A stretch of 64,000 bases of DNA from Acidobacteriota bacterium (GTDB lineage: Bacteria > Acidobacteriota > Vicinamibacteria > Vicinamibacterales > UBA2999), in the NCBI GenBank assembly GCA_963169195.1, contig CAUJDN010000030.1:62001-126000 (forward strand), given 5' to 3'. Positions 32,954-59,626 of this stretch are shown here, one piece after another (the first letter of the stretch is position 1; each line of letters starts with the position of its first letter). Under the pieces are notes generated by a model. It did not search any database, was not told the DNA's origin, and saw nothing but the letters and a program-made list of their open reading frames with translations. A program made the translations under genes and the position numbers.

Positions 32954-33367
32954 CTACACGAGCCGTGGCCGGACCCGAGCCCCCTCGATTGCGAGGTCCA
33001 CGTCGGTGCCCCACACCTCGGGGATGCGCCGGCGCTCGAGCCACACGAGGCTCGAGGCATCGACATAGGTCAGCTTGCGCCCGCGATGCCGATCCAGCTT
33101 GCGGGCGACAGCGATGTGGTGCGCCGCGTCGAGCGGCAGCAACTGCAGGCCGGGCAAGGCAGCCACGCACTCGCGGAACTGGCGAGCCGCCTGCTCGCCG
33201 AGGCGGTGCAGGAACCAGCCGTAGGTTTCGGACACGACCGCCATCGACGTGTACCAGCGGCGTGGCGGTGCGGCGAAGAGGTCCACGGCCGGCAGGTGAT
33301 ACGCGTCCGAGCGATCGAGGAACGCGACGAAGATGCCGGAATCGAGGAAGACCGCGGCGGCCTTCAT
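32954..33367 (-). CDS. PIN-domain toxin (VapC-like)
   Basis: This 137-residue PIN protein has FLDSGIFVAFLDRSD (first Asp), VVSETYGWFLHRLGE (Glu), and the late acidic pair TYVDASSLVWLE and VWGTDVDLAI. Catalytic acids appear complete, so it is probably an RNase toxin. ATG 33367 overlaps the TGA of the upstream RHH antitoxin gene, showing coupled translation. The pair is controlled by a palindrome overlapping the antitoxin start. Confidence 0.87.
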   Translation of the reverse strand: MKAAAVFLDSGIFVAFLDRSDAYHLPAVDLFAAPPRRWYTSMAVVSETYGWFLHRLGEQAARQFRECVAALPGLQLLPLDAAHHIAVARKLDRHRGRKLTYVDASSLVWLERRRIPEVWGTDVDLAIEGARVRPRLV

Positions 33368-33594
33368 GGCCGGCCGCGCCCGTACACGACGTCGTCGAGG
33401 GAGCGGCTCGCGGTCGCGTCGCCGGAGGCCACGACGCCTGCGAAGCGCATCCAGGGCTTGTCGCCGCTGCCGGCGGCGAGTTGCGCGGCCAGCGCGCGTC
33501 GCACCAGTTCCGCGATGGACACGCCCTGTCGCGCGGCCTCGGCCCTGGCGCGCGCGTACATCTCCGGCGCGAGCGATATCTGGGTCCTCAGCAT
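33364..33594 (-). CDS. Ribbon-helix-helix antitoxin
   Basis: This 76-residue protein has an N-terminal ribbon-helix-helix DNA-binding fold (MLRTQISLAPEMYARARAEA, then ARQGVSIAELVRRALAAQLA). A C-terminal tail (SGDATASRSLDDVVYGRGRP) probably wraps the PIN toxin. It should repress its own operon by binding the inverted repeat that covers its start codon. The ATG at 33594 lies within the left arm of that repeat. It is coupled to the PIN gene by ATGA. Confidence 0.85.
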   Translation of the reverse strand: MLRTQISLAPEMYARARAEAARQGVSIAELVRRALAAQLAAGSGDKPWMRFAGVVASGDATASRSLDDVVYGRGRP

Positions 33595-33624: not shown

Positions 33625-33708
33625 ACCCGGACCCCTCCGGCCTGAGCGCCCACTCCGGCCTGAGTGCATCGATGCGCGGCCCGCACGTCTGACCCGAGGA
33701 GACACCGC

Positions 33709-34242
33709 ATGGCGTTCATCCGCTACGTTCCTGCCGACGCGTTGGCGCCCGAGGACCGCGTGGCCGACCCCGATCACATCATCCAGGTACACGCCGTGCA
33801 TCCGGCGGTGATGCGCCACCACTGGGAGCTGTACAAACAGGTCATGCATCGTGCCGGACCGCTCAGCCGACGCGAGCGCGAAGTGCTCGGCGTGCGCGTG
33901 TCGGCCCTGAACGGCTGCCGCTATTGACTGCACCATCACGGGGCGGGTCTCCGTGCGATTCTCGGGAGGGCCGGGCTGGCCGACGAGGCGCAGAACGCGA
34001 TCGTCGACGGCCTGCAGACGTCGCCGGTCTCGGCGCCCGGCCTGACGGCGCGGGAAGCGGCCCTGTTGGATTACGCGGACGTGCTCACCCGCACCCCGGC
34101 AGCGGTGCGCCCGCACCACATCGACCGACTGCGTGCCCAGGGGCTCGACGACCGCGCCATCCACGACGCCTGCGCCATCGTGGCCTATTTCGCGTTCGTG
34201 AACCGCATCGCCGACGGCCTGGGCGTGGAACTGGAGGGCTGA
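33709..34242 (+). CDS. AhpD-like (CMD family) peroxidase-related enzyme, predicted selenoprotein (Sec at codon 73)
   Basis: Reading through the in-frame TGA at 33925-33927 gives 177 residues, close to the usual length of the peroxidase-related CMD/AhpD family. Around the TGA the protein reads VSALNGCRY-U-LHHHGAG, where family members have a CxxC redox pair (NGCxYCxxHH). The codon thus replaces exactly the second cysteine, and homology continues without a break (REAALLDYADVLTRTP, AIVAYFAFVNRIADGLGVEL). A 7-bp hairpin with a G-rich loop stands 10-28 bases after the UGA. GAGGAG 7 bases upstream sets ATG 33709. tRNA-Sec is encoded at 59531-59626. The alternative is a nonsense mutation of TGC. It probably acts in peroxide reduction. 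Confidence 0.75.
33937..33955 (+). promoter_or_regulatory. SECIS-like hairpin after the in-frame UGA
   Basis: CACGGGG pairs with CTCCGTG (seven pairs, one G-U) around loop CGGGT. Sixteen bases separate the UGA from the loop, and a G is the second loop base. These values match the published bacterial SECIS constraints as I recall them. The bases GGGTCT also resemble the AGGUCU loop of E. coli fdhF. SelB would bind this element. Confidence 0.62.
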
Positions 34243-34343: not shown

Positions 34344-34673
34344 ATGTCGTCCACGATCAACGCCAGGACCCTGCGTGCCAGCCTGCCGCGACTCGTTGCG
34401 CGCGTGCGCAAGGGCGCTCGCTATACGGTGCTGTATCGGAGCCAGCCGGCATTTCAGATCGCCCCGATCGCCGCAAGCGCGGCGGCCGGCCGGCCCGGCC
34501 CGAGGGTGCCGATCGACGTGGGCAAGGACGCCGACCTGGTCGTCTGGGCGGGCGACCCGTTCGAGTTGACGACGGCCGCGGATCGCGTGTTCATCCGGGG
34601 TCGGGAGATGCCGCGCACGACGCGGCAGACCGAGCTGCTGCGCACGTACCGGACGCTGCCCGTTCGCCCGTGA
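34344..34673 (+). CDS. Chimera: Phd-like antitoxin N-terminus joined to an amidohydrolase C-terminus
   Basis: In this 109-residue frame, residues 1-43 (SSTINARTLRASLPRLVARV, RKGARYTVLYRSQPAFQIAP) resemble a Phd/YefM-type antitoxin N-terminus. Residues 55-105 (VPIDVGKDADLVVWAGDPFE, RVFIRGREMP) are the C-terminal end of a metal-dependent amidohydrolase. The join falls in a Gly/Ala/Pro-rich stretch. The amidohydrolase catalytic barrel is absent, so no enzyme activity is possible. It is probably a deletion product that kept an open frame. A palindrome sits upstream, so the promoter may still be controlled. Confidence 0.6.
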   Translation: MSSTINARTLRASLPRLVARVRKGARYTVLYRSQPAFQIAPIAASAAAGRPGPRVPIDVGKDADLVVWAGDPFELTTAADRVFIRGREMPRTTRQTELLRTYRTLPVRP

Positions 34674-34689
34674 TCACGGAGGCCACGCC

Positions 34690-36105
34690 ATGCGACGCAT
34701 CCTTGTCCTGTTCCTGCTCCTCTCAACCGGGTCGACTCGCGCGGCGATCCAGGACTTCGATCTCGTCGTCGCCAATGGCCGCGTCATCGATCCCGAGTCC
34801 GGGCTGGATGCCGTGCGGAGCGTCGGCGTGCGGGGAGGGTCGATTGCCGCCATCGAGGCGGGGCCGCTGCGCGGCCGCACCGTCATCGATGCCACGGGCC
34901 TCGTCGTCGCCCCTGGCTTCATCGACGTGCACCGGCACGGCCAGAACGACGAGAACTACCGTCACGCGGCGCTCGACGGCGTGACCAGCTCGCTCGAGCT
35001 CGAGGTCGGCACGCGCGACATCGAGAGCTGGTACCGCGAGCGGGCGCCCGGACGCCTGATCAACTACGGCGTGTCGATCGGGCACATCGGCGTCCGCATG
35101 GCGGTGATGGGCGATGCCGGGGACTTCCTGCCGAGCGGTCCCGCCGCGAGCGCAGCCGCGACGCCGGAACAGGTGGCCGAGATGGCGCGGCGCCTCGACG
35201 AAGGACTGCGTCAGGGCGCGGTGGCCGTCGGATTCGGGACGGCCTACACGCCAGCGGCCTCGCCGTGGGAAGTGCTCGAGATGTTCCGTGTTGCCGGGCG
35301 TCATGGCGCGTCGGCGCACATCCACGTCCGCCGCGGGGTGGAGGGCGTCCAGGAAGCCCTGGCGAACGCCGTCGTCACGGGCACGCCGCTGCACGTCGTG
35401 CACATCAACAGCACGGGGGGCAACGACGTCGGTCGCATGCTGGTGCTCATCTCCGAGGCGCGGCAACGCGGGCTGGACGTGACGACCGAGGCGTACCCGT
35501 ACAATCGAGGTTCGACGCGCATCGAGTCGGCGCTCTACGACAACTGGGAGCGGATGAGCGACGAGGACATCGGCCAGATCCTGTGGGCCGCCACCGGCGA
35601 GCCGCTGACGCGCGAGAGCTTCGCCCGATACCGCAAGCAGGGCGGATCGGTGATTCAGCGGCCGGGGCGCATGGAGAACGTGCAGCAGGCGATCAACAGC
35701 CCCCTCACCATGATCGCGAGCGACGCCAGCACGATGCGCGATGGCCGGGGCCATCCGCGCAGCACGGGCACGTTCTCACAGGTGCTCGGTCGCTACGTCC
35801 GCGAGGCGAAGTCGCTCTCGTTGATGGACGCCGTCCGCAAGATGACCCTCATGCCGGCACGGCGGCTCGAGGCGCGCGTGAGTGGGATGCGGAACAAGGG
35901 TCGCCTGCGGGTGGGAGCGGACGCCGATCTCGTGGTGTTCGACCCGGTGCGCGTGATCGATCGGTCGACGTACCAGCAGCCTGCGCTCGCGCCTGAGGGC
36001 ATCCAGCATGTCGTCGTAGCCGGCGAACCCGTGGTCGCCAACGGCCGCGTGGTCGACGGCGTGGCCCCCGGCCGCGCGATTCGCGCAGCCATCGCGCCTC
36101 GGTGA
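34690..36105 (+). CDS. Exported amidohydrolase, D-aminoacylase-like
   Basis: This 471-residue amidohydrolase-superfamily enzyme has a signal peptide (MRRILVLFLLLSTGSTRAAI). An N-terminal strand region precedes the metal motif PGFIDVHRHG (HxH), and later ligand regions include HIHVRRG, LHVVHINSTGG and MIASDAS. The C-terminus is GADADLVVFDP and VVVAGEPVV. It resembles N-acyl-D-amino-acid deacylases/dihydroorotase-like proteins that cleave acylated D-amino acids. GGAGG eight bases upstream supports ATG 34690. With the neighbouring S9 and P1 peptidases it fits a peptide-scavenging group. Confidence 0.86.
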   Translation: MRRILVLFLLLSTGSTRAAIQDFDLVVANGRVIDPESGLDAVRSVGVRGGSIAAIEAGPLRGRTVIDATGLVVAPGFIDVHRHGQNDENYRHAALDGVTSSLELEVGTRDIESWYRERAPGRLINYGVSIGHIGVRMAVMGDAGDFLPSGPAASAAATPEQVAEMARRLDEGLRQGAVAVGFGTAYTPAASPWEVLEMFRVAGRHGASAHIHVRRGVEGVQEALANAVVTGTPLHVVHINSTGGNDVGRMLVLISEARQRGLDVTTEAYPYNRGSTRIESALYDNWERMSDEDIGQILWAATGEPLTRESFARYRKQGGSVIQRPGRMENVQQAINSPLTMIASDASTMRDGRGHPRSTGTFSQVLGRYVREAKSLSLMDAVRKMTLMPARRLEARVSGMRNKGRLRVGADADLVVFDPVRVIDRSTYQQPALAPEGIQHVVVAGEPVVANGRVVDGVAPGRAIRAAIAPR

Positions 36106-59530: not shown

Positions 59531-59626
59531 TGGCGGAAGCGTATGGGAGTCGAACCCATCCTGCCCCGCAAGGAGGCAGCAGCCGGTTTTGAAGACCGGG
59601 AGGGCCACCGGGCCCCGGTCGCTTCC
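59531..59626 (-). tRNA. selC: Selenocysteine tRNA (anticodon UCA)
   Basis: On the minus strand the gene begins GGAAGCGACC. It has a six-pair D-stem (GGGGCC/GGCCCT-like), the anticodon arm CCGGT-CTTCAAA-ACCGG with anticodon TCA, and a long variable arm (CTGCC...GGCAG). The T-arm is ATGGG-TTCGACT-CCCAT, and the acceptor ends CGCTTCC G CCA, with CCA encoded. The long variable arm, UCA anticodon and 96-base length match tRNA-Sec. TATGAT (59633-59638) lies 6 bases upstream, so transcription may start at the mature 5' base. It decodes UGA with SelB and a SECIS. Confidence 0.95.

Follow-up and report, generated by a model that had tools for sequence, protein, structure and literature searches.

A predicted AhpD-like selenoprotein of the TIGR01926 family from an Acidobacteriota genome

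An in-frame TGA in an AhpD-like gene

Does the single TGA that interrupts an otherwise intact AhpD-like gene, coding for a small enzyme of the antioxidant type, encode selenocysteine (Sec), or does it mark a broken gene? The gene was found in the window (the whole stretch of DNA analysed here, 64 kb in length) from an Acidobacteriota MAG. The host is a soil-type bacterium, and the window's nearest relatives beyond its own assembly are Acidobacteria MAGs. The elements of the gene are listed below.

33709..34242, plus strand: predicted AhpD-like selenoprotein gene (TIGR01926, CMD superfamily), 177 residues counting Sec at position 73
33694..33701 (ends approximate), plus strand: ribosome-binding site of the AGGAG type, read from the sequence
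33925..33927, plus strand: in-frame UGA, codon 73, predicted Sec of the C70-R-Y-U73 motif (TGA in 47 of the 56 aligned homologues at this column)

The initial annotation had described a frame broken by one TGA only and preceded by a good ribosome site. Both statements were confirmed on rereading: the frame is open from the ATG at 33709 to the natural stop TGA at 34240-34242 except for codon 73, other stops or frameshifts being absent, and the AGGAG stands ∼7 nt 5′ of the ATG. The TGA falls on the second Cys of the AhpD CxxC motif (NGCRY-U-LHHH). With Cys put at position 73, the product matched the TIGR01926 model of ‘peroxidase-related enzyme’ with 111.6 bits (cut-off 81.8) over residues 24-173. 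This HMM comparison, proposed as a check in the initial annotation, agrees with its claim of homology unbroken to the end, as the match spans the TGA on both sides and is continuous up to residue 173. The Pfam CMD model PF02627 also matched around the TGA (52.2 bits, again with Cys at 73). An annotation based on the plain ORF (33664-33927) would give a truncated product, <90 residues long.

A scan of the whole window for TGAs located between two coding-like stretches of one frame returned three, codon 73 among them. As the remaining two, at 194 and 45770, resemble the usual ends of genes, the codon-73 TGA is not a chance finding.

Conservation of the TGA codon and selection after it

Codons at the column of codon 73 were read directly in 56 distinct aligned homologues: 47 have TGA, eight have Cys (TGC or TGT) and one has Ser (AGC). 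Homologues with TGA at this column come from several phyla and go down to ∼30% identity; the Sec forms were found in Acidobacteriota, Gemmatimonadota, Planctomycetota, Neomarinimicrobiota and SAR324. Codon 73 is also TGA in the four closest orthologues, which come from the same family (85, 81, 74 and 70% identity), and the Cys forms at this column are more distant homologues; thus both kinds of homologue that the initial annotation had suggested looking for do exist.

Pairwise dN/dS values were 0.05-0.15 before the UGA and 0.10-0.42 after it. Third codon positions change most on both sides of the UGA, and codon-position G+C is alike before and after it. Judged from these substitution patterns, purifying selection is seen to continue past the UGA. 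The codon thus conserved almost certainly encodes selenocysteine, with Sec incorporation inferred from the sequence comparison.

The bSECIS hairpin

33937..33955, plus strand: bSECIS hairpin with a 7-bp stem and the loop CGGGT (33944-33948), identified by published criteria and comparison of relatives

The hairpin, CACGGGG-CGGGT-CTCCGTG with one G-U wobble among the stem pairs, begins 10 bases 3′ of the UGA (9 nt intervene) and has a UGA-to-loop spacing of 16 nt, exactly the geometry first described for it. In the bSECIS model (PMC13188914) the stem has 4-16 bp, the loop has 3-9 nt with G among its first two positions, the spacing is 16-37 nt and the energy does not exceed −7.5 kcal/mol. With a loop of 5 nt, a stem of 7 bp, G at loop position 2, a spacing of 16 nt and −8.4 kcal/mol, the window hairpin agrees with all four published criteria; the placement inside the bSECIS range, as given in the initial annotation, is therefore borne out, and the stem covaries among relatives.

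MFE folding of the 46-nt segment beginning at the UGA gave another structure instead of this hairpin, and the result was no better than with shuffled sequences (z 0.63). Compared with synonymous recodings, the hairpin of the window copy alone was not exceptional (p 0.25). As the thermodynamic test alone was not significant, comparative tests were used for the hairpin, and the support for a SECIS element is comparative, not thermodynamic.

Hairpins conforming to the model at −7.5 kcal/mol or below were present in 32 of the 47 Sec forms versus 1 of the 9 non-Sec forms. When each protein was recoded synonymously, the hairpins of the Sec forms were better than those of the recodings (combined p ∼2e-12; p 0.72 for the non-Sec forms), though combined p-values overstate the evidence because the sequences and genomes are phylogenetically related. 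Among 32 sequences with the hairpin in the same register, the stem positions pair in 97.4% of cells, versus 28-47% with slid partners. Two-sided compensation occurs in six cells of this set: where the residue of codon +5 changes from Gly to Ala or Glu, the Leu codon +8 has a matching synonymous change. In other lineages the register is shifted and the hairpin is still formed.

Selenocysteine machinery in the genome and in the phylum

59531..59626, minus strand: selC, tRNA-Sec with anticodon TCA (ARAGORN; Rfam RF01852, 71.8 bits)

The selC gene, called local in the initial annotation, shares the contig with the selenoprotein gene at a distance of 25 kb. An Rfam search of the window detected selC and one other tRNA, nothing more. 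Elsewhere in the genome we found selA (525.5 bits), selB (295.5 bits; 323.6 with neighbours) and selD (350.3 bits), all above curated cut-offs; the absence of these genes, named at the outset as grounds for rejecting a selenoprotein, is thus not observed. In-frame TGA is absent from selA and selB of the same genome.

The genome's selD (genome G000, contig C93, 59054-59977, minus strand, locus L048) itself has an in-frame UGA, in the motif SCAGU, which makes it a second predicted selenoprotein.

In a sample of 396 genomes from the phylum, selA was present in 51 of the 56 genomes with a TGA copy versus 201 of the 340 others (Fisher p 9e-7, in a test that treats phylogenetically related genomes as independent). 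The selA search gave no match in five genomes with a TGA copy (G111, G133, G156, G304 and G374), three of which are 72-75% complete; the tRNA-Sec match is strong in four of the five and weak in G304. At E ≤ 0.001 the tRNA-Sec model matches other tRNAs too (control genomes match as well), so the phylum-wide count of its matches carries no information.

Alternative explanations

Could the TGA be a simple lesion? TGC differs from it by one base, and four genomes of the same genus do not have the gene, which is hence dispensable; the initial annotation kept as a rival a simple C-to-A nonsense mutation, which would leave a pseudogene with residual downstream homology. Such a mutation would have to be shared with orthologues at dS 0.6 to >1 and with members of other phyla, and to be followed by a stretch under purifying selection with no further stop or frameshift. 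Since TGA occupies one column in 47 of the 56 homologues, a chance nonsense mutation is refuted, and we give a pseudogene hardly any weight. An altered genetic code, in which TGA is generally read as sense, would also produce a conserved in-frame TGA; it is the least probable of the alternatives and was rejected as well. TGA works as a stop in the window, terminating this gene (34240-34242) and others; just three TGAs in 64 kb are flanked by coding-like stretches on both sides, and in-frame TGA is absent from selA, selB and the conserved non-redox genes among those looked at.

Decoding of UGA as Sec competes with termination, which leaves room for partial readthrough, with termination yielding a 72-residue product of regulatory role. 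That product would lack Sec, H77 and the C-terminal helices, and evidence of a separate function for it is absent; we consider this reading improbable, if somewhat less so than a pseudogene. The reading that we prefer, with a probability of about 95%, is that the gene encodes an AhpD-like selenoprotein of the TIGR01926 family, in which UGA 73 is predicted to be read as Sec through SelB and the hairpin; Sec insertion and activity are deduced from sequence.

Predicted fold, active site and mechanism

The AlphaFold2 model of the protein is all-helical (mean pLDDT 95). Its best PDB matches are 6k40 (D. radiodurans AhpD), 2prr, 2oyo and 3c1l, with 2pfx also matching; the debrominase Bmp8 and Sestrin2 are more distant structural matches. 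A proton relay has been described in M. tuberculosis AhpD (Glu118, Cys130, His132, Cys133 and His137; PMC3141380) and in P. aeruginosa PA0269 (Glu36, Cys48, Tyr50, Cys51 and His55; PMC3141380). All five relay residues are found in the window protein as E58, C70, Y72, U73 and H77, with identical spacings of 12, 2, 1 and 4; E58 and H77 do not vary among 23 aligned homologues.

We propose that the product is a thiol/selenol oxidoreductase of the CMD fold, belonging to the TIGR01926 ‘peroxidase-related enzyme’ family. SelB and Sec-tRNA(Sec) would decode the UGA of codon 73, guided by the intragenic hairpin starting 10 nt 3′ of it, and Sec would take the place of the second CxxC cysteine (Cys133 in M. 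tuberculosis AhpD). Because the relay residues are spaced as in AhpD and PA0269, Sec is expected to be the nucleophile, resolved by C70: U73 would be a reactive selenolate reducing a hydroperoxide or another oxidised substrate, C70 the resolving thiol, and E58, Y72 and H77 the proton relay. Peroxidase activity and the role of each redox residue are putative.

In the larger loci of relatives the flanking ORFs were inspected by eye, and no conserved neighbour gene pointing to a substrate was recognised. Directly upstream of the selenoprotein gene is a VapBC-like pair on the minus strand (32954-33594), consisting of an RHH antitoxin (33364-33594) and a PIN toxin (32954-33367). A short ORF at 34344-34673 (plus strand) has an antitoxin-like start and, by eye, an amidohydrolase-like C-terminal tail, with no Pfam match. 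It is followed by an amidohydrolase gene at 34690-36105 (plus strand) whose distant relatives are numerous in this genome (28 matching stretches).

Distribution and direction of Sec/Cys change

Searches of the 396 Acidobacteriota genomes gave 69 matches at E ≤ 1e-20, 64 of them with one in-frame TGA, a count of in-frame TGAs whose column position was read only in matches with locus sequence in hand; one of the 64 also has a TAA. As far as these sequences tell, close homologues in Acidobacteriota are mostly Sec forms. Two distinct AhpD-like genes, both interrupted by TGA in frame, occur in some genomes: G024 (loci L005 and L021), G048 (L008 and L022), G074 and G199. Within the pairs of G024 and G048 the TGA is at the same column and the hairpin registers differ.

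The gene is absent from the four genomes of the same genus (G001-G004). Despite this, close Sec-bearing copies occur in other genera of the family and in other phyla. The patchy distribution suggests transfer or loss; as a search for synteny in the same genus gave no clear orthologous flank, gain and loss are indistinguishable there.

In the tree of homologues two Cys groups are nested within Sec clades, and Sec copies from other phyla are placed near the window's clade; the rooting of this tree is uncertain, the query used is biased towards Sec forms and some MAG contigs may be misbinned. With the same reservations about root and query, the tree suggests horizontal transfer together with some Sec-to-Cys change. 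Tentatively, and with the odds against it, the TIGR01926 branch in Acidobacteriota and neighbouring phyla may be dominated by Sec and spread from phylum to phylum as a selenoprotein, some Cys forms having arisen from Sec. If true, this would reverse the pattern of sporadic Cys-to-Sec change reported for many selenoprotein families.

Comparison with known systems

AhpD-like selenoproteins have been predicted since 2005, in accordance with the initial annotation. The ‘AhpD-like protein, TIGR01926, CxxU’ is among the predicted bacterial selenoprotein families in Table 1 of a 2026 review (PMC13188914); the family is credited to the Sargasso Sea survey (Zhang 2005, PMC1088965), and AhpD-like CxxU proteins were abundant in the GOS survey. 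With TIGR01926 CxxU already listed, the window gene is an additional, well-supported member of a known selenoprotein family, and it leaves the general picture of selenoproteins unchanged. Its value is that of a clean, testable predicted selenoprotein from a little-studied phylum; that the Sec form is common in Acidobacteriota bears on annotation and on estimates of selenium use by environmental bacteria.

The window protein shares with the Sargasso AhpD-like selenoproteins the NCBI family, CxxU with Sec second, a bSECIS element 3′ of the UGA and widespread Cys homologues; it differs in its Acidobacteriota MAG host, the founding set being marine and filed as COG2128. Two related AhpD/CMD-type families are named (seleno)proteins by NCBI, NF041238 (AhpD-related CFYUT (seleno)protein) and NF053654 (YciW-related (seleno)protein); the window protein is far below the cut-offs of both (59.8 versus 175 bits and 33.7 versus 310, respectively). 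AhpD proper is a different subfamily, TIGR00777, for which the window protein scored 23.7 bits against a cut-off of 191.95. The Cys-type proteins 6k40, 2oyo, 2prr, 3c1l and 2pfx resemble it in fold (TM 0.7-0.86), in sequence (E 1e-12 to 1e-19) and in the active-site CxxC, but have Cys at the place of Sec and only ∼25-29% identity. M. tuberculosis AhpD and P. aeruginosa PA0269 have the same five-residue relay with identical spacing (PMC3141380), but use Cys where the window protein is predicted to have Sec.
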